Assembly (NCBI GenBank): GCA_009602725.1
Contig: WELB01000059.1
Coordinates: forward strand, 334,113 to 365,563
DNA length: 31,451 nucleotides
Direction of reading: 5' to 3'
Source: Spirogloea muscicola
Taxonomy: Eukaryota > Streptophyta > Zygnematophyceae > Spirogloeales > Spirogloeaceae
The notes under the pieces are model-generated. The model did no database searches. It was not told where the DNA came from and worked only from the letters and a program-made list of their open reading frames with translations. The translations under genes and the position numbers were made by a program. Shown piece after piece: positions 4,788 to 31,380 of this stretch (position 1 is the stretch's first letter; each line of letters opens with the position of its first letter).

Positions 4788-5881
4788 GTGAAGACTTGAC
4801 AGAGAGGGCTTAGGCGTAAGCCACCGTTGTGTATAAATTCGACTGGCCCACATTGGGCCAAGCCCAGTCTAGTATCATCCATTATGGCAAGTTGGACTAT
4901 TTGCTTGCTGGCTTCTTTCAGTGGCCTTGTGGTACAGTAAAGCAGCAAAACAAAACCTCAAAACATGTTTCTCTTCTGGTGCGCAAGAATTACTGCTAAC
5001 CTTCACTGGTAGTTTCTCATCACTGCAGATCATTCTACTGTTGTTACACTCTGGATAAATGTCAGATTAGAAGAGCACTGTACTTGACTCCACAAGCGGA
5101 CAGGTCAGGAGCTTCTACAAGTAGAAGCTCCTGAACGTATGGCTGAGTCAAAGCTGTTCATCCTCACGACACTTACATTCACTTTCGAAATGCTAATGTA
5201 GTGAGCTACAAGCCCTGTCGAAAGAAGTGAGCAATGAGAAGCATTGACTACGAAACATGCCCTGCAATGGCAATTCATTAGTTTCCTACGACAACTGGAG
5301 GTCAACTTCGAACCAGAGGAGCAGCACAATACTCGAAGGGATTGAGCAAAGCCAAAGGAAGACACTGCACGTCAGATGTTGTTGCGTTGAAAGAAGAGCT
5401 CACGTCTCTGGAGGAAATCAAGGCTGCACTAGGCTTGTCAAGTGCTTGGCAAATGCATCAAATCAGATTGAAGTTTCTGCCGGAAGCAGCAGAGGGCAAG
5501 GAGAGTGGCTCTCCCAATGAGGGCAAGGGCTGTGATAAGCCAGCCCGAAAAGAATTGACAAGTTTTGAGGGCAAACCTTCTTGTATATGTGAACATGTTG
5601 ACCCAACAAAAGAGCAGCTTTTCTTATGTAAGTCAATGGCCCCGTTTGAGGGCCACAATACCATGAGACCTTCTGACTAGCAAGAGGGGCTTGCCTACTG
5701 CAGAGACGATGATTGCTATTAGGAAGAGATGGGGAGAACAAAGTGTGGGACAAGATAAGGGAGAGGAGAGAATGTGTGAGTGGCACAATTTATCTGGCCC
5801 CCTTTTGTTTGACATGAGTGACTGCAGTGTATTGCGAAGTTGGATGAGACTAAAGTCCTAGTAACAGGTGCTCAATATGTT
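4788..5881. other. Convergent intergenic region between PreP and PurC
   Basis: PreP ends at 4787 on + and PurC ends at 5882 on -, so this 1.1 kb holds both 3' UTRs. An open frame at 5342-5680 (+) reads as a lysine- and glutamate-rich peptide with a short possible coiled coil, but I recognise no domain and see no convincing flanking exons. I do not call a gene. The only clear structure is the hairpin at 5105-5134. Confidence 0.5.
5105..5134. repeat. Perfect 14-bp-arm hairpin with 2-nt loop
   Basis: TCAGGAGCTTCTAC (5105-5118), then AA, then the exact reverse complement GTAGAAGCTCCTGA (5121-5134). It sits about 320 bp past the PreP stop, between two converging genes. It could be an RNA 3'-end structure for either transcript, a small transposon remnant, or a recombination-prone palindrome. 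Confidence 0.85.
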
Positions 5882-9928: not shown

Positions 9929-12031
<2,103 letters not shown>

Positions 12032-15000
12032 GCCGCCGGCGCCGGCGACGGCTGCTGCGCCTCCACCGCCGCGTCCTCCGGCGGCGCCCGCGCCGCCTCC
12101 GCCGGCGCCGGCTCCAGCATCGTCGCCCTGATTGAGAACCGGGCCAGCGAGGTGCTGCGTTCATCAGCCTGCCGGACGCGGTCACGCACATGCATGCTGG
12201 ATCGGGAATGATAGTCCTACTATCTGGACATGACTTCTCTGTGTTTATGCTCCCTGATCGCTTTGCGTCCATGGTCCTTGACATGCTGGTTCCTACTACG
12301 GCAGCGTAGTGCCGGCTCCACACTCTGCATTTGACAGGTCAAAAGCTGCAGGTCGGCATGGCAGCCATCGATCTCCGATCCGCCACGCTCCACCTCTCTC
12401 AGTACATCGAGAGCAGCCAAGTGTATCACAATACGGCTACGCTGCTGCAGATATTCAAGCCAGATGTAGTCATTTTCCCAAGCAATGCGACTGCAGCACA
12501 TTCAGCGAGTGGCATGGGTCTCATTGGCCTGTTGGAGAAAGAGGCGGCCAAGAAGGTATGCTGTCATGCTCCCGCGTCAAAGACATACAAGAGGAGCCCT
12601 GGGTCTTTCCTGCTTCCAACGTACCCACCATTCTGGTGGCGAGAGGCTAATTGCACGTGACAGATGCCTTCACCTACCAAGTCAATGACCGTGAGCTGTC
12701 AATCTTGGCAAGTGGCAGATTGTGCTTGCAAGAGGGTGCTTCGACGACACCAAGGTGAGCAAGAAGTTGCATGCATTGATCAAAGAAGGCCGTATGCAGT
12801 ACTGTGCTCTATTGCGCCCGAGATCTATCGCACTTGCATGTGCAAATCTTCCGGTACCTCCATGGTGCCACATGTATTCCTGGTCCTGAATCATGGCGTG
12901 CCAACAGGGGTCCTTCCTGTTGCAAGATCTAGCATCGCAAGAGACCCTGCAACAGACCATGGATAGCCATCAAAAGGAGTACTACCTGTCTTTGGCCGCA
13001 GCTGCGGCACTTTTCAAGTGGTAAATTTGGCAGCCTGATTGTGAACCTGCGAGCTACTATCTGAATGACTTGTCAGCTATTGTGGTGACAAACTGTGGCT
13101 CAACAATACAGTTGCTGTGAGGTACTAAAGCACAAAGAATGTCCATACTTCGACAAAGGACATCTGCTCCATAACATGCATGGCTGTTATGCAAAGTCAG
13201 GTCAGGCAGAAAGAGGATCTTTTGAGGTCGACTCAAGGCCAGAACATGAGTCTGACTGAAAGTTTCCTGTGATAGGCTCGACAGCGATAAAGGAGTCATG
13301 GTGACGCACCATTCCTTGCAGGTGCTATCGGTACTAGGTGGCCATGAGGGACTACTTTCACATGTCTTCTTGCCGTGCTCGATGTAGCAGATGAAGGCAC
13401 TGTACTTGTCAAGGAGCATGGCTGCATCACAATGCTTGTAGATTTGGATGGACGCAAGCCGTTAATGGTCAAGATGGTTGCCAGTGCAGATTACCTACAA
13501 TGGATCATTTGATCACATGCATATAGATGCAAACAGGTACATATCATGGGTAATGGACAGTATTCTACAACTTGCAGCAGCGTCCCAGAACAGGAGCTCG
13601 GCGGACGCCAGCAAGCTGCACTAGGAGGGCTAGGGCTTAGGCTCGTATTTCCAAGAAGGTAGCATCATCGGTATATATCTTCGACGTGTTATTTGTGATA
13701 CCGATGAAGCTACCTCCTTGGACCTACGAGCCTAAGCCCTAGCCCTCCTAGTGCAAGCTTGCTGGCGTCCGCCGAGCTCCTGTCCTAGGACGCTGCTGCA
13801 AGTTGTAGACTCCTGTCCCAGTGTCTCTGGCAGGCAACCAGTTCCTTTAAGTAGTTACCTATGTAATCCATTCTGCATAAGGACCGTTATCTGGAGGTTC
13901 TTTACAAATCTGCATTCTCAACATCCATATGTATAACTTGATTGCTTTGTGAGATGGTGAACAGCATTCGTAACCTGGAGATTGTGGAATCTTTGGCACC
14001 AATTGCAATGGGACGTAAGGTCGAGCGGACTGGCAGCTTATTTGGCACCTTGAAAGCAACGAAGACAGCTGGAGGGTATTGAGAAAGACTTGATATACTT
14101 CTATGCTGCCGTGGCCAAGGACGGTCTTATAGCTAGACATTAGGAAGTTGGCAACTTCTTGCGCAAGCTAGGTCAAGGATCAAAGGAAAATTTTAAGACA
14201 GGCTGGTTGATTAAACAGTGACAGGAAGTGGTGGGTTGTGGGTGCTACTTTCTCATGGCTAGCCGACCATTTCTCAAAGTCCCCCTCTCACAGATATCAT
14301 TCTACGCAGGACTCGATTACTACGTGCAAACCTGCTCCAGCCCCTGAAAGATATGAACACCATAACGTCAAGACTGGACTGTATGGTGAACATCTGCTCC
14401 TGCTGCTCCGCAGCATCTTGCTCATGACATACCTAGGCATGAGCAAGCACTGAAGGCAATTGATGAAGCAAGTATGCATGCCTCATGTCAGTCATTGCAG
14501 GCCTGCTTGCTCAGCCCTTTCTTAGAGAGTCGACCGCAGGATGAGCTGACAAGCAATGAGGACATATTCTTTGGACTATGTCAGATCCTCTCAATGTTAC
14601 ATAAGGACTCAGGTGATCAGCTGTTGCTCAGATGTGCTGCTCTGACACTATAGGTGTCAAAGACTTGCTGCAGCAACCATTTCCAAGAGGGGAAGATTTG
14701 ATGCCTTGCCGTGTATGATAAGATTGTGAGAGCAGGCATTGTGACATCCTCATTGTAAGCCTCCGCATGCAGACCGCATATTGTCACACCTGGTATACAA
14801 GCCCGCAAGAGTACACGAGCAAGACTTGGACGGTGCAAGGACTAGAAGGAACGAGGCTCTGGTGGCCAGCATTATCTCACTGAAGGAAACGATGGACCTG
14901 CTGCCGCGACTTGCAGAGGTTGACGGTTACCAACTCACGCCGATGTTGCATTTGCCCCGTCTCTTTGCGATGATTGGCTTAAAGTCCATGATGACACATT

Positions 15001-18000
15001 TGAATGTTTCTCTCTGGCAGGTTCTTGAACCGGCCAAGAGTATGCTTCTTCATAACATCAGAAGAAATGTCTGCTTGCAGCCAACACTGGAAGCTGTTAA
15101 AGACAAGTAAGACTTCAGCAAGCCGTGCCTTGTCGTCATTTCAATAGACCAGGCAAGATCCTCGATCCCGAATTTGCACCTGACAGTGTTGCCCGGGTGT
15201 TCTTGTCATCATCAGGATTGCCCAAGTCGTGGAAGCTGACGTGCTCCACGCCCGAGCACCATTTGTGGCAAGAACACAGCAATGCTTTGCTGTGAAGGCT
15301 GGCATTGATGGTTTCCTTGACCTAGCTAGGAAGATTTTCTGTGAAACAAGCGAAGGTAAATTCAGCAATCACAACTGTGAAGTAGTCTAGCAATGATAAC
15401 TTGGTGAGAAGGGGAAATTTTATACGAAGGACGAGAGGCTGATGCTTGTGTAGCGCTTGTGCACTGCTACGCCAGCCATTCATGAGCTTGGTAGACACTA
15501 TAGGGAAACATTTGATCTGCCAAGTCTGAAGATGCCATTCAACAGTAGAAGAGGCTTTTACATCAGCATCCCTGTGAAGGAGTTCAAGAAGCTGCAGAGA
15601 CCGAGCCTTTTTGTGCAGTTGAGTGCCTCCCCATTGTCACAATCCTGCTGGTTTTGTTGTATGAAAGTAAGAGCCATGTCGTGCTCTGATACTGCTGGAA
15701 ATCAAGCAGCGGCCATATTGAGGCTCGAACCCTCAAGGTCGCACTACCATGTGGCGTACAACTTGCAGGTCAGCAAACATGGCAAGTCCATCCAATGTTC
15801 GACACCAGACCTTACTTCCGTGAGTCAAAAGCACATGCACTAATCTAATTCTTAGCTCTGCATCACTCTCAGGGTTGCTGATTTTCTGACCTGATACCTC
15901 TCAGTAATTCTGCCTGGACTTACTTAGGCACAGGATTGAAGATAACGCTCTAGAATGCTTCTAAATGCTTCATCTGCTCCAGCTCAACTTACGAAATAAA
16001 GAGGCAGCAGCTGAGTGTTACGTGAGAAGTGAGCGCTGCTTGGAAGGTGCGACATGGTTGATACCTGCTTATGCCAAGCAGTAATACCTTACATACTGTA
16101 ATTGTGTATGAGGTTATTACACTATCGGTAAGCAGTTCCAACTGTTGTATGCATCAGGTCTCTGTGTGGAACTTCGGAAAAGCTTGCCATGGCTGGCACT
16201 GTTGTCGGAGTCCCTCTGCTTCTTGGATATGATGGTTAATGCTTTTGCCTTCCTTGTCTCTTCCAATCCGTCAAAAGAGTTTGTGCGACCTGAGTTCACA
16301 AGTATGTACTCTCAAATGTCAATGCAGCCCATTGGCAAGTCTTTGGCTGCTGCAAGGACTATGTCCCTCATGCTGCATTTGTCATACACATTCTTGTCAA
16401 GGCAGGTCATGATCTTTTCGATGATGATTCGTGCAAGGGTGACACATGGCCACCTCATCATGTTCTTGTGGTGGATCCTTGGTTGCATGAAGCCAATGGA
16501 CCACTTGCCATTGAGGGAGGTCGACATCCAGTTCTGGAGAAGCTGCTTGAGGACGAGTACGTTGTAAGTGCAAGGCCCTGCAGTTGCATCCCACTTCACG
16601 GTGGCTCTAGCACGCGTTGCTGGTGCTGTGCAACTCCAAAACACCAATGTCTTGCGGCTCTAATGGGCAGTGCCAGTCCTACAAGTCTTGATTGGACCGC
16701 AAGGAACTCTGTATTGCAGCCCAACAACACGTTTCTGTCAGAAGCTTCAAATATGATGATCATCACAGGTCCAAACATGTAAGTGACACCTCCGCAAAAC
16801 GAGTATTCTGTACGTAAGTGGCGTGGTCGGGCGCAAAGCTCGACGTTTACGGTAACTTGCAGCTTGCTTTTATCGCTAGCAACAAGATCTGCAACGGCAC
16901 CTGTGGCAGGAGTGGCAAGAGCACCTACCTTCGGCAGGTTGCTGTGATTACTATCTTGGCACATGTTGGATGCCATGTACCGGCAAGATTTGCGTCGTTC
17001 CAGATTGTTGACAGGCTCTTTACTCGTATTGGAAGTAGCGACAGCCTTGAGTCGAACTCCAGCACGGTCAGTCCAAAGGCTCCCCTGTTTGTGGAGACTG
17101 ACACGTAATTATGCGTTGCAGGCTGCTCGTTTGCACTCCACTGGCAAGCAATGACTTCTATCGTGCATCTGTCAGTGCAGTTCATGGCTGAGATGAGGGA
17201 GACAGCTTACCTGATCAATAACCTGACATCCAGGTCTACAAGTGCCCTCGTCTTTGTACAATGAGCTATATCGACATGCATTGCGAGCAGTGATCTATGT
17301 CGTTTGACTGACACTATCGATACTGACTGGCTGACGCAGGAGCTTGATCCTAATTGACGAGTTAGGGAAAGCAACGTCGTCTGCTGATGGCTTTGCCCTT
17401 GCATGGAGCTGCAGCGAGTACCTCATGTCTCTTGGAGCGTGAGTCACATTCAATGACCTGCCCAGAGCACGCAAAGGCTCAGAGATCAAATGAAGTAGGT
17501 AAATGCCTTTTACCTCACTGGCCTTGTCTAAGACAGAGCGATACAACTTACGGTGCTTTTGTTGCCAGGTACACAATCCTGACAACTCACATGCAGAGAA
17601 TGGCAGAGATGTCAAGTATTTACCCCAACGTGAAAGTCTGCTACTTCTCAGTGGACATAGTGGACGGTCGCCTGGAATACAAGGCGAGCCAAGTTGACAC
17701 ATCCTTGCAATGGCAAATAATATCAAAGTTGCAATTAGCACAAGCATACGGCTCAGCACATTGGCTTCGGGCCTTCCACCTCAGCAAATTGTCGTGCCAA
17801 ATGCCACAGTTTCTTCTGAAAGAGGGGCAGACCAACATCCCGCACTATGGCCTTCATTTGGCTGAGATTGTGGGCTTTCCACCTGCTGTGAGAAGCGATG
17901 CGCGGCGCATCGCCAAGGTCTTGGACGATGTGGTGAGTTGGGAGGGCCACAGATATCTATAGGAACCAAACACGACGCCACATGGCACAGACGAAGTTGC

Positions 18001-18269
18001 ACTCGTACAATGTTGTCGTATCTGCAGAATTGTTCAATTACCACTCCCGCTGTTACCTTCTGTTCAAGGAACCAAGCATGCTTGACTTCTGAAAGTACTT
18101 GCCAATCGTGCAGGAAAGCAAAAGGCTACACAGAGGCCGTAATCTGTACTTGGAGTTGCACAAGACTTATGGCGTTGCACAGAAGCTGCTATGTCTGAAG
18201 CATGCCAATCTGGCCGAGGCCGATATGCGGCGGTACCTGCAGAGTCTGAAGAATTTGTACCTGGAATGA
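12032..18269 (+). CDS. MSH4: MutS homologue 4, meiotic crossover factor, 5' partial, 24 visible exons
   Basis: Exons: 12032-12151, 12352-12555, 12719-12791, 12927-13020, 13077-13116, 13490-13536, 13965-14075, 14310-14385, 14540-14612, 14773-14918, 15021-15106, 15216-15355, 15476-15612, 15769-15819, 15983-16046, 16158-16301, 16493-16563, 16720-16778, 16910-17066, 17181-17233, 17340-17438, 17569-17683, 17810-17932, 18114-18269 (812 codons plus TGA). MSH4 pairs with MSH5 as a clamp that stabilises meiotic recombination intermediates; it lacks the MutS mismatch-reading domain. ALIENRA and [18 protein letters not shown] at the N-terminus mark MSH4. The ATPase has Walker A GPNMSGKST (residues 576-584, split by an intron), Walker B LILIDELG (651-658) and TTHM (687-690). 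All catalytic blocks are intact and no stop interrupts the model. The Gly/Ala-rich N-terminus runs into the gap. Least certain junctions: 12791/12927, 15612/15769, and 17683/17810, which uses a GC donor. Confidence 0.93.
13556..13817. repeat. 262-bp near-perfect inverted repeat (foldback) in MSH4 intron 6
   Basis: Left arm 13564-13674 and right arm 13698-13809 are reverse complements over about 111 nt, with one 1-nt indel and roughly ten mismatches, around a 23-nt AT-rich loop. A second block, GACAG at 13556-13560 and CTGTC at 13813-13817, extends the stem past a 4-nt mismatch. The element lies entirely between exons 13490-13536 and 13965-14075. I see no clear target-site duplication and no coding capacity. 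It may be a foldback/MITE element or the stem of a small-RNA precursor carried by the MSH4 transcript. Confidence 0.93.
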
Positions 18270-18822: not shown

Positions 18823-18929
18823 GGCATGGACTGTAGTGTAGTTCTTTTTCGGCACCTCTTTCTTTGGCTTGGGATATTGTCCATTCTTTTGGGGCTGGCT
18901 TTGCCAGCCACTCTTCTCTATGGGCGAGC
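18823..18929 (-). repeat. Dispersed palindromic repeat, minus-strand copy
   Basis: Read on the minus strand it runs from GCTCGCCCATAGAGAAGAG through GGCTGGCAAAGCCAGCCCC and AGAATGGACAAT to AAAGAAAGAGGTGCCGAAAA and ACTACACTACA. The plus-strand copy at 31280-31380 follows the same order over roughly 100 bp with scattered mismatches. Confidence 0.8.
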
Positions 18930-18984
18930 ACTTCTTCGCTCTGCAAGTACTACGGATGAGGGTCCCTCAGTAAGGCCTACAGGA

Positions 18985-19258
18985 AGCCACGGCTAATGAG
19001 AGCCGGCTCTTGCAAGAAGAGAGAAGGCATGCGGTGCGCATGAGATGTAAGGGTGGCCAGTTCAAGCGCTTTCACTGTTCAGGCAGAAGCCAGTGCAGAA
19101 AGCGGGGCTACTTGACGCGAACACTGTGCCGAGGTGGCTACGGATCAGTGTGACGTTAGAATCCACACGGCGCATGCAAACCCGACAGCCTGAATTGGGG
19201 CAAGAATTGGGCACCGAGGGGCACATGGCAGCGCGAGGCTGCCAAGTAGAAAGAAAGA
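18985..19258 (+). repeat. Upstream part of the dispersed repeat
   Basis: GAGAGCCGGCTC, AGAAGAGAGAAGGC, GGTGCGCATGAGATG and CAGGCAGAAGCCAG between 18997 and 19096 match, in order, GAAGGCCGGCTC, AGAAGAGAGAGAAGGC, GGTGCACATGATATGG and CAGGCAAAAGCTAG at 30467-30571. In both places the palindromic core follows 100-200 bp downstream on the same strand, so the two parts belong to one repeat family. Confidence 0.6.
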
Positions 19259-19426
19259 GCTCGCCCATTGAGGATAGGGGCTGGAACAGCCAGCCCAAAA
19301 AAGAGTGGACAAAGAACGAGAAGGGAGCCAGGGGAAGAAAGGGCTCGCCCATTGAGGATAGGGGCTGGACAAGCCAGCCCAAAAAAGAATGAACAAAGAA
19401 CGAGAAGGGGGCCAGAGGAAGCCAGA
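19259..19426 (+). repeat. Two tandem 84-bp units of the palindromic repeat core
   Basis: Unit 1 (19259-19342) and unit 2 (from 19343) both begin GCTCGCCCATTGAGGATAGG, then GGCTGG-spacer-CCAGCC, then CCCAAAAAAGA and ACAAAGAACGAGAAGGG. They differ at only a few positions, so the duplication is recent. Confidence 0.9.
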
Positions 19427-19478: not shown

Positions 19479-20870
19479 TCAGTAACCCCTGCTAAGCAGC
19501 CGCAAATCAGAGAGGCTAGGGTCCTGGAAGTGGGTCCCCTGGACAGAGCCAGAGGCAGCAGCGAGGGCTCTCCCGACACAAAGGTGCAGCGCACGGGCCA
19601 TGGACCTCTGCAGCGAGACGGCCAAGCGCATGCGATACACTTGCGCCAGCGACCCGGCTGCAGGAAAGTCTACCGGTTCACCATGGAAGCGACGGGCGAT
19701 TGCGTGGCGGGCGAGCTGGTTAAGTAGCTCAAGCCACCGAGCGCCCAGTGCCCCATGGATGTCAATTGCCAACGGGAAGAACTCGTCTTCCGGTGGATGG
19801 TCGGCGTACTTGATCTCTTTTGCCCGAGCGGCGCAGGCGACCGCATACCCAGCCTTGGTGGCAGACTGGGCTGGGTGGGAGCGGTCAAATGCGTCGGTAG
19901 TCACCACATCCAGAAGCAGACGTGGCCCGCCGGCCTGTGGGGTGGCCACCAGGTCGACGCGACGAGCGTGGAGACCGTCGGCCCTGGCCTGGAGCGGCAT
20001 GACGCCGGAGTGCTCCGCTGCCACCGCGAAGCCAGCCTCCACCAGGATGCTGTGCATCGCGTCCCGGAGGCGGTCGTGGGCCGCCGTCCTCTCGCCGCCA
20101 TGGGAACAGCGCAGGACGTGAGCAGCCAGCTCGCCAGGCTTGGCCCCTCGCTCGCCACACTGGCATTGACGCACGCCCTGGAGGCATGGAGGCGGCAGCC
20201 CCAGGAGCCGGTGGACGGCAGTGCGAAACACCTCATCTGGGAGGGTCAGGGCGTCAGTGATGGGGAGTGCCTGGAGCCACGCCGCTGCCCCCGGGGAGGA
20301 GGCCGAATGTAGTCTCGCGCGCCCGCGCAGGTCAGCCTCAGGAAGCTGCAGCACGGCGGTGGTGTAGGCGGCCTTGTCGACGACGGCCGCGAAGCGCGCT
20401 TGGACGCGCAGGTCAGCGGTGTGCGCGAGGTGCGCAAAGGAGACCGCCTGGCCGGCCATGTCGGGGTGCGCCGCGAGCAGCTCCTGGTGGGCGGTGCGAA
20501 GCGCCACCTGGAACGGCAGCGCGCCTTTGTCCACCTCCACCACCGCCTGCTCCAGTGCACGCCGGCCATGGACCATGAAGCGCTGAGCCACGGAGGCGGC
20601 AGTCTGCGCCCAGCTGCCGAGGTATGCAGCCCGGCATGAGCGGACGAGCGGGCGCAGGCCGAGACCCCCGTGGCTGATGGGTAGCGCCGCCTGGTGGATA
20701 GCGGCTGGCGACTGGGGGAAGCCCTGGTGGCGGACCAGGGCCGCCAAGCTCGCCACCATGCCCGCGTCGAAAGTCGCGTACGCCGCCAATGCCTCTGGGA
20801 CGGCGCAGTGGCCCGCGTCAAGTACTGGGGCCGCTGCCCGATGGCCTTGGTCAGCATAAGCGGGGAGCGC
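19479..20870 (-). mobile_element. 5'-truncated non-LTR retrotransposon, RT C-terminal part plus restriction-like endonuclease
   Basis: An open minus-strand frame ends at TGA 19481-19479. From its N-terminal side it shows ALPISHGGLGLRPL, a block typical of the region after the catalytic domain in LINE reverse transcriptases (about 20650-20690). Next comes a zinc-binding-like CQCG...HVLRCSH cluster (about 20100-20165). A PD-(D/E)XK-like endonuclease follows: RRVDLVATP, LLLDVVTTDAF, AKEIKYAD and FPLAIDIHGALG (about 19740-19970). Such endonucleases occur in R2, NeSL and related clades and nick target DNA for target-primed reverse transcription. The catalytic RT motif (YxDD) is absent; element-like sequence fades upstream of about 20870, where the frame enters unrelated GC-rich DNA. 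The copy is therefore a 5' truncation, as is usual for LINEs. The 3' part has no stop and may be young. I see no poly-A tail or target duplication. Clade assignment is open. Confidence 0.8.
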
Positions 20871-22340
20871 TAAGAAGTCGATCGAGCGAGGCGGTGACGC
20901 TGACGCCAGCGCCAGCTGATGCGACGGGGGACGAGCAGCGACGAGCAAACGTTCCCGTTCCGTCCATTTGGCCGCCGTCAGACCGCCCGGCTTCCCGGAG
21001 GCTGGCAAGTGCCGCTGCCACTTGGCGCGCCCCCCGGGCCCCGCGGCGCGCCTCGCGGCGGATCTCGCGCCTCCCAGCTGCCGCCGCCGCCGCCGCCGTC
21101 GCCGCCGCCGCCGGCTCGGCTTCCTGCTTGGGAAGGAGCACGGGGGGAGGTCCAAGTGGCCGCTCCGAGGGCTCTTGCGGCGGCGGCGGCGGATGCGCGG
21201 AGGCGCGGCCCGCCGCCATGGCCACTGCAGACGGCCCCAGCCTGTGAGCCGCGCGGCTCCGCCGCCGCCGCCTCCCCCGCCGCCGCCGCCGCCGCCGCCG
21301 TCAATGCTGCTGCCTTGCCTGCCTGACGTCCCGCTGATGGCTCTCGTCGTCGTCCCTGAGGCGGCGTCAGGCGGGGCCCTCCCCCGACGCCCGTGGAGGT
21401 CAGCCCCTCGCACCCCGCCCACGGCGGCCGCGCAGGTGCCCCGCCGCGCCCGCCCTCCCGCGACCCCCCCCGCATGACGCGCAAGCACTCCTCCCGACGG
21501 CGCCATGAGCGCCATGCCTCGGCGGCACCGGCCTTCGCCAGCCAGCGCCACGGCGTGCCGCCGCTGCGCTCTGCTGGCTACGTCTCAGCGCCTGCCGCGT
21601 CGTGACGGTGGCAGCCAGTCAGCCGCACCGCGCGCGGCGCGGGAGGGGCTCGCCGGCGCACCCCCAGGACGACGGCGACGCGCCCGCTGGCCACCGGGTG
21701 ACGGCCTCCAGCCCCACGTCGCCCGGCGTCATCGGCTGGCACCGCGCCACGCTGTGGCGGCGGGCCTCGGGTACGCGAGCACCATTGCCTGCTCATAAGT
21801 ATGCTCAGCTTGAGAAACGGTGACCCTCCATCAATGTGAGCCTGGGCTCGATGACCATCCTGACAGACAGAAAGCGCCTAAGCTCGGCGGTGGAGCTCTT
21901 GCCGAGCCCATTAGCTTGTTCGAGATTGGTCACGACGTTGCCGAGTAGCCTCTGTGCAGCTCAGGGTGGACCTGCCACTTTGATGTGGACAAGGGAATCT
22001 CTGGTAGCAACAAGTAGCCCATTGATTTCTTCAGTTGGGCTCTGTCGCTGCGGCGCTGCACCAGATGCGCGGGACAATGCGTCCAACATCGAGGCGGCAG
22101 TGCGGGCGATATTGATCGACAGCATTGCTGGTAGTCCTCGTCGTGGAGTGTGAACCCCGTTGTTCAGGTTTTAGGGTCCATATATGACACTCGCAAATGG
22201 ACATAAGCGGATGATGAATTTTGGGCATGCACGTTGCATCATACACCCTTGTGAAGCTTGGCAGAGCACTGTGTGACATGAACAAGCTTTCCATGACAGG
22301 TATCTTGCAGCATGATGGGAGCCGGCATGCTCTGATGCAT
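20871..22340. other. Very GC-rich region with GCC microsatellites; possible 5' exons of the RING gene
   Basis: Open frames overlap on both strands because of composition, so none is convincing alone. Trinucleotide GCC/CGG tracts occur at about 21081-21113, 21178-21192 and 21260-21300. Two plus-strand stretches look exon-like. The first, about 21602-21774, ends at a GTACGC donor and reads SPTSPGVIGWHRATLWRR. The second, about 22050-22132, ends at GTAGTC and reads NIEAAVRAILIDSIAG. Either could belong to the gene that continues at 22348, but I cannot link them by phase. Confidence 0.35.
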
Positions 22341-30454: not shown

Positions 30455-30755
30455 GCAGGGCGGAAGGCCGGCTCGAAGATAGACAGCGAGAAGAGAGAGA
30501 AGGCCCGTGGTGCACATGATATGGAAGGGAGTGGCCTATTTCGAGCCAATACATTGTGCAGGCAAAAGCTAGAGCTGTAAGTGGTTGACCAGCCCAAAAT
30601 AATGAATGATAAAAGTTTGAAGGGTCCAGGAATGCGCTAAAGCGCACAGCAACCAAAGTGGCCACTGGGTGCTCAATATCCCCTGAGATGAGAGAGAGCT
30701 CGCCCATAGAGAAGAGGGGCTGGCAAAGCCAGCCCAAAAAAGAATGGACAAGCCA
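30455..30755 (+). repeat. Dispersed palindromic repeat, fuller plus-strand copy
   Basis: It contains the upstream segment (30467-30571, see the match at 18997-19096) and then the core from 30698: GCTCGCCCATAGAGAAGAGG, GGCTGGCAAAGCCAGCCC and AAAAAAGAATGGACAAG. The palindrome GGGCTGGC-AAA-GCCAGCCC is perfect here. Confidence 0.75.
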
Positions 30756-31025: not shown

Positions 31026-31272
31026 GCCGACGGTCTCCACGCTCGTCGCGTCGACCTGGTGGCCACCCCACAGGCCGGCGGGCCACGTCTGCTTCTGGAT
31101 GTGGTGACTACCGACGCATTTGACCGCTCCCACCCAGCCCAGTCTGCCACCAAGGCTGGGTATGCGGTCGCCTGCGCCGCTCGGGCAAAAGAGATCAAGT
31201 ACGCCGACCATCCACCGGAAGACGAGTTCTTCCCGTTGGCAATTGACATCCATGGGGCACTGGGCGCTCGGT
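31026..31272 (+). mobile_element. 247-bp internal slice of the non-LTR retrotransposon endonuclease
   Basis: Read against the reverse complement of 19736-19982, this segment has the same length and I found no mismatch. It codes for the same endonuclease stretch (from HARRVDLVATP to DIHGALGAR) on the plus strand. It begins in mid-frame and stops in mid-frame: at 31273 it meets AGAAGGTGCTCGCCCATTG, the dispersed repeat. It lacks both ends of the element, so it is not an ordinary 5'-truncated insertion. Confidence 0.9.
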
Positions 31273-31279
31273 AGAAGGT

Positions 31280-31380
31280 GCTCGCCCATTGAGAAAAGGG
31301 GCTGGCAAAGCCAACCCAAAAAGAATGGACAATGTTCAAAGCCAAAGAAAGAGGTGCTGAAAAAGGACTACACTACAAAG
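31280..31380 (+). repeat. Dispersed palindromic repeat abutting the retroelement slice
   Basis: The core GCTCGCCCATTGAGAAAAGG and GGCTGGCAAAGCCAACCC is followed by AAAAAGAATGGACAAT, AAAGAAAGAGGTGCTGAAAA and GGACTACACTACA, matching the minus-strand copy at 18823-18929 throughout. Confidence 0.8.

Follow-up and report, generated by a model that had tools for sequence, protein, structure and literature searches.

The window, that is the whole stretch of 31,451 nucleotides of Spirogloea muscicola DNA that was analysed, carries on its forward strand a gene of the MutS type, as indicated by a profile search (MutS_V, E 7.7e-60; a further match to MutS_III, E 6e-4, lies below its cut-off). The earlier note had called it MSH4. 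The MutS assignment stands, and the name is one that we, too, presume, from exon order and motifs rather than from an MSH4-specific model; the gene is referred to here as MSH4-like. Just upstream, positions 11486-12031 consist of approximately 120 T followed by approximately 420 N, an assembly gap, and therefore part of the 5' end of the gene may be missing. A GT...AG intron of 428 nt (13537-13964, forward strand), across whose junction the reading frame is kept, separates an upstream exon (13490-13536, conserved in the three copies of the gene) from a downstream one (13965-14075), with the exon bounds set by eye.

This intron contains, on the sense strand and within its limits, as had been claimed, a foldback of 264 nt at 13555-13818, almost exactly where the earlier note had placed it (13556-13817). 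The 23-nt loop was recovered as described (13675-13697), with arms that are longer than the proposed value of approximately 111 nt, namely 120 nt for the 5' arm (13555-13674) and 121 nt for the 3' arm (13698-13818). The 3' arm agrees with the reverse-complemented 5' arm in 112 of the 121 alignment columns, the differences being eight substitutions and a single 1-nt bulge. When 13540-13830 was folded as RNA, the minimum free energy was −229.7 kcal/mol, against −95.4 ± 5.3 kcal/mol for its dinucleotide shuffles (z −25), and none of the 200 shuffles was as stable. The hairpin is also the sole inverted pair with adjacent arms found in the window (scan at ≥75% identity, within 1500 nt); the scan returned two other inverted pairs, of approximately 60 nt each and some hundreds of bases apart, within 18877-19396. 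Annotation criteria for plant MIRNA genes call for a foldback shorter than approximately 300 nt, without a large internal loop, and for no more than five mismatches in the miRNA/miRNA-star duplex. By its overall length, 23-nt loop and single 1-nt bulge the foldback falls within these limits, and any 21-column stretch has at most four of the nine differing columns, with one within 13589-13609. Half of the eight substitutions are T/G differences, which occur pairwise, at columns 6 and 8 and at columns 94 and 95. Not one of the eight gives a G:U wobble and all three transitions yield A:C, so that there is no sign of selection for kept pairing in the stem.

The genome holds three copies of the MSH4-like gene, one in the window and one each on contigs C148 and C157. 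The matching introns of the other two copies, with corresponding splice junctions, measure 137 nt (C148) and 133 nt (C157), and the hairpin is absent from both (folding z −1.2 and +1.9, respectively). Approximately 75 nt that these two introns have in common are replaced in the window copy by approximately 350 nt (13555 to approximately 13905) that include the hairpin, and the non-hairpin rest of the block (13819-13905, forward strand, the end being approximate) has no recognisable match to either homeolog. A derivation of the arm from the old intron middle was considered and dropped, since it gained no support from free alignment (246, 55, 261 and 175 of 300 shuffles reached the observed score) or from anchored extension (77 of 500 and 500 of 500 from the 5' side, 256 of 500 from the 3' side).

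The base of the hairpin starts 18 nt past the 5' splice site, a position that would suit a cis-acting structure by which the hairpin, or its dicing, reduces the splicing of this MSH4 copy or sets its timing; Chlamydomonas Dicer-like 3 is reported to cut mRNAs with such structures, both in untranslated regions and in translated ones (PMC4817775). However, all three copies retain intact splice sites and, according to the same source, a Chlamydomonas intronic miRNA hairpin leaves splicing possible and host mRNA abundance is unchanged by intron-derived miRNAs, so that a cis-acting role has only a very slim chance of being correct. With the hairpin looped out, arithmetic gives an intron of approximately 164 nt, as compared with the 133-137 nt of the homeologs.

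Substitutions private to one copy are similarly distributed on the two sides of the intron, with 24, 28 and 34 in 13021-13553 and 32, 29 and 39 in 13906-14600 for the window, C148 and C157 copies, respectively. Because the three copies are thus about equally distant beside the intron, as in a star-like local history, the short intron form common to two of them is probably the ancestral one. When the whole of 13906-18240 is counted, it is the window copy that stands apart (280 private substitutions, as opposed to 118 in C148 and 174 in C157); were it a true outgroup, parsimony would leave gain and loss undecided. The arms differ from each other at 8 of 120 positions, while the homeologous introns, with bounds set by eye, differ at 349 of 2374 (C148) and 376 of 2340 (C157), giving Fisher p values of 0.011 and 0.004. 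As the arms diverge less than the introns, the hairpin is probably younger than the split of the gene copies, on the assumption that arms drift like introns; conversion between the arms would likewise reduce their divergence, as would selection acting on the stem. As a separate observation, the comparison of 12032-18243 with L026 and L027 shows that the MSH4 copies are mosaic, with approximately equal distances up to about position 15,000 and with C148 nearer to C157 than to the window copy from there on, for which conversion between homeologs is a possible explanation.

The earlier note had considered that the element might be a MITE, and the same may be asked of any foldback transposon inserted in the intron, given the long terminal inverted repeats, the short total length, the hairpin-free homeologous introns and a genome rich in short repeats able to form foldbacks. 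However, a DNA search of the whole genome (153 Mb, 471 contigs), which may pass over very common words, returned the hairpin locus alone, with no second copy of the hairpin or of one arm, and no further copy was found in 227 kb comprising the window, the homeologs and 18 random 10-kb stretches. Thus, the arms appear to be single-copy or nearly so. The edges that were tried gave no target-site duplication of ≥4 nt, the longest candidate being of 3 nt, and the many near-identical copies with such duplications by which a plain MITE was to be recognised did not appear. Nor do the homeologous introns represent a clean empty site, since they have no hairpin and keep the approximately 75 nt that are missing from the window copy. 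On copy number and target-site duplication, a MITE or other transposon was therefore set aside as very unlikely. The genome search also yielded no founder gene for the whole arm.

Several repeats were observed in the course of these searches. A short interspersed repeat of approximately 60-90 nt, with the core GGGCTGGC, has matches (E < 1e-5) in 14 of the 18 random stretches, often with several copies per 10 kb and in either orientation, which allows adjacent copies to fold back on each other; it lies in the window at 5504-5578, 18856-18936, 19252-19410, 30691-30752 and 31273-31353, and the sampled foldback L043:8310-8488 belongs to it. A GC-rich foldback of 488 nt (L045:5176-5663, −419 kcal/mol) is in part similar to L040:2480-2612. 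On the reverse strand of the window, 19482-21584 is a 701-aa open frame without a Pfam match that by eye looks like the C-terminal portion of a non-LTR retroelement protein, and 247 nt of it (19736-19982) are repeated at 31026-31272, inverted and 100% identical.

The earlier note had also suggested looking for target sites of either arm in coding genes. Three tiles that the two arms share without a difference were run against the genome, with ≤3 mismatches allowed. The tile at 13619-13642 found itself alone, and that at 13564-13585 found four other sites, each with three mismatches, against two in the reversed control, which is chance level. The third tile (13592-13615) found eight other sites, against none in the reversed control, and seven of the eight fall in one gene family; the remaining site, on C44, belongs to an unrelated GC-rich gene and was left out of the family set. 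Of the three tiles, this one alone stood out, and it led to a segment of the 5' arm, 35 nt long and antisense to a single family, which is a possible target. A protein search placed the family at no fewer than 20 places, a lower bound because these were all the candidates to which the search gave a score; one place (C105:400666-400788) does not cover the motif and was left out. The 5'-arm segment (13581-13615, reverse strand with respect to the family) runs antisense to a coding motif conserved in the family, matching the C24 member at 31 of 35 positions and a C82 member at 29 of 32, and the same motif is found in sense in the 3' arm (13759-13792, forward strand; 17.7 bits by nhmmer in the window scan).

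The profile built from 19 members scored 17.8 bits on the intron, with the match spanning approximately 35 nt of each arm, whereas one-arm dinucleotide shuffles (n = 3000) gave 46 reported matches, the best of 3.6 bits. By a plant-type target score, the 21-mer at 13589-13609 (forward strand), taken as an illustrative guide that would have to be excised from the stem, scores ≤4 on 13 of the 19 members, with a best value of 0.5; 19 windows have a qualifying score, all of them in the 5' arm, and the family is antisense to just one of the arm strands. At ≤2 mismatches in the genome, all seven non-self sites of this 21-mer are family members, all antisense, with none in the reversed control. At ≤3 mismatches it has 11 members, whereas 400 GC-rich 21-mers drawn from the window as controls have none; as the family was found by searching with the arm segment, the shuffle and 400-mer controls give no genome-wide probability.

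MIRNA genes reportedly may be born by inverted duplication of gene pieces, the model being that of Allen et al. 2004. An arm that resembles a gene family, as here over approximately 35 nt, would be in keeping with such an origin. Similarity did not persist, however, once the miRNA-like segment was removed: with the 35-nt core taken out, the arm flanks were at shuffle level in four of four tests (204, 77, 262 and 126 of 300 shuffles reached the observed score), and with only the 24-nt centre taken out the corresponding numbers were 28, 239, 21 and 268 of 300. Since the flank similarity is at shuffle level, plain inverted duplication of a longer piece of the family is not supported by these comparisons, and a captured patch, selection on the guide or chance remain as sources of the 35-nt match. 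From mismatch counts in sampled sequence, a beta-binomial fit gives 5.6e-5 expected chance sites per 35-mer at ≤4 mismatches (calculated for 13582-13616, one base off the best-matching 13581-13615) and 9.2e-5 for a 34-mer of the other arm. By taking into account approximately 86 positions and the free choice of length, we estimate the probability of a chance match of 35 nt at roughly 0.005-0.02. For the 24-mer at ≤3 mismatches the same fit predicts approximately 0.9 chance sites, in line with the one unrelated site, and the seven family sites, being one family, are not independent. A quadratic extrapolation for the 24-mer (38 genome sites at ≤2 mismatches) is skewed by ten repeat sites; the beta-binomial, which gives 0.05, is the kind used.

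As to the family itself, its places (L048-L052 and L054-L068) form clusters on C57, C82 and C105, with open frames of up to approximately 600 aa, and stops occur at some of the places. No Pfam match was found for the three members scanned, no NCBIfam match for the one scanned, and no significant match in the PDB. By its look, the product may be similar to a BTB/POZ protein.

The machinery that might act on the hairpin was sought by profile searches of the genome, which identified three loci that each match Dicer_dimer once and RNase III twice, and four that match both PAZ and Piwi. In-frame TAG codons in the Argonaute matches had raised the idea of a code reassignment, which was dropped, the TAG being read as splice-acceptor sequence. 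According to PMC7994812, S. muscicola, whose genome underwent a triplication, has three DCL2/3/4 genes, three AGO1/5/10 genes and an AGO2/3/7 clade, and neither of the two Zygnematophyceae genomes covered by that study yielded a DCL1. The locus counts agree with these published values, the clades being taken from that article, and point to the host as a streptophyte (a zygnematophyte), so that Chlamydomonas, with which the earlier note had compared the hairpin, is the wrong lineage. That article, in the literature collection searched the only one found on miRNAs and hairpins of Spirogloea, describes the knowledge of small RNAs of streptophyte algae as 'almost non-existent', and one orchid paper was the only one listed there for hairpins, introns, miRNAs, whole genome triplication and homeologs together.

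With three Dicer-like and four Argonaute loci in the genome, it is plausible that the hairpin is a small-RNA precursor. It is a long, near-perfect intronic foldback, as expected of hairpin-siRNA loci and sirtrons, with transcription assumed from its sense position in the gene. The foldback is of known kind and makes a good candidate hairpin-siRNA or proto-MIRNA locus. The sequence of events that we tentatively favour, with a little less than even confidence, is that of a young locus of this type. A single-copy inverted duplication would have replaced the middle of the MSH4-like intron in one of the three homeologs, and the 120-bp stem would fold once the pre-mRNA is made. Dicers of the DCL2/3/4 type would then cut it into small RNAs. 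Since the Dicers are of this type and no DCL1 is reported, siRNA-like products would be expected over one precise miRNA. The spliced mRNA would be little affected, as the hairpin would loop out of the intron by itself. Those small RNAs that come from approximately 13581-13615 of the 5' arm could pair with the mRNAs of the gene family, and we infer that they may be loaded into the silencing machinery and target the family.

The main rival, nearly as likely as a small-RNA locus, is that the hairpin is inert DNA, a by-product of the repair of an intron break with filler DNA and a foldback duplication, which is spliced out, degraded and drifting. Replacement of the intron middle by unrelated sequence lacking a target-site duplication of ≥4 nt, mismatches with no bias to pairing, the patch-like family match and an effective intron length near that of the homeologs are all consistent with it. 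However, some cutting would be expected of a transcribed, near-perfect duplex of 120 bp in a genome with three Dicer loci, and the 21-mer match is limited to one gene family and to one orientation. A more ambitious interpretation, that of a nascent MIRNA-like gene in a lineage reported to lack DCL1, which arose after the split of the gene copies, is expressed from a meiotic gene and guides silencing against a multi-copy family, is rather unlikely. An established, precisely processed miRNA gene would account for the size of the foldback, for the low number of differing columns per 21 nt and for the strong complementarity of the predicted guide to one family. However, in its length and near-perfect pairing the stem is like those of young loci, it is found in one of three gene copies, and the Rfam search of the hairpin returned nothing at threshold (the one weak match being mir-6095, with E 0.19 and 21.9 bits, where the cut-off is 100), a match to a known family not being required of a new MIRNA gene. 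By taking into account also that PMC7994812 reports no DCL1 from its two Zygnematophyceae genomes, this is the least probable of all the readings.

The absence of the hairpin from the homeologs and the 35-nt antisense match are additions to what the earlier note could see. The locus offers a roughly datable single-locus foldback beside two hairpin-free copies in the same cell, that is a natural control, and would bear on whether a new intronic hairpin is used by a silencing system that is reported to comprise AGO1/5/10-type and DCL2/3/4-type proteins and no DCL1. Zygnematophytes being the algal sister group of land plants, the nascent MIRNA-like gene, if real, would imply that small-RNA genes arise without DCL1 just outside the land plants.

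Among known systems, sirtrons are RDR-independent and give rise to siRNAs and to methylation of the host gene. The Spirogloea hairpin is like them in lying inside an intron and would likewise need no RDR (for the term, see PMC5545994). According to PMC4817775, the intron-derived miRNAs of Chlamydomonas reinhardtii (e.g. cre-miR1157) also come from a stem-loop in the intron of a protein-coding gene, with splicing expected to be unaffected; however, that alga belongs to another lineage, its DCL3 and miRNA genes are described as having non-plant characteristics, and its intronic miRNAs are demonstrated, whereas the Spirogloea hairpin is known as a sequence. The non-conserved MIRNA loci of Arabidopsis share with it a single-locus foldback of which one segment is complementary to a gene family, but 16 of their foldbacks keep similarity to genes without the miRNA region (PMC1790633), while the similarity in the present hairpin is lost in such a test. 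Several non-conserved plant miRNAs with long hairpins depend on DCL4, among them miR822, miR839 and miR7695 (PMC4211545). Sequenced small RNAs, in part with known targets, set these three apart, as siRNAs and host-gene methylation set apart the sirtrons, from a hairpin recognised by sequence alone. What the DCL4-dependent miRNAs and the hairpin-siRNA loci have in common with the Spirogloea hairpin is a long, less imperfect stem, for which processing by DCL2/3/4 rather than DCL1 would be expected.
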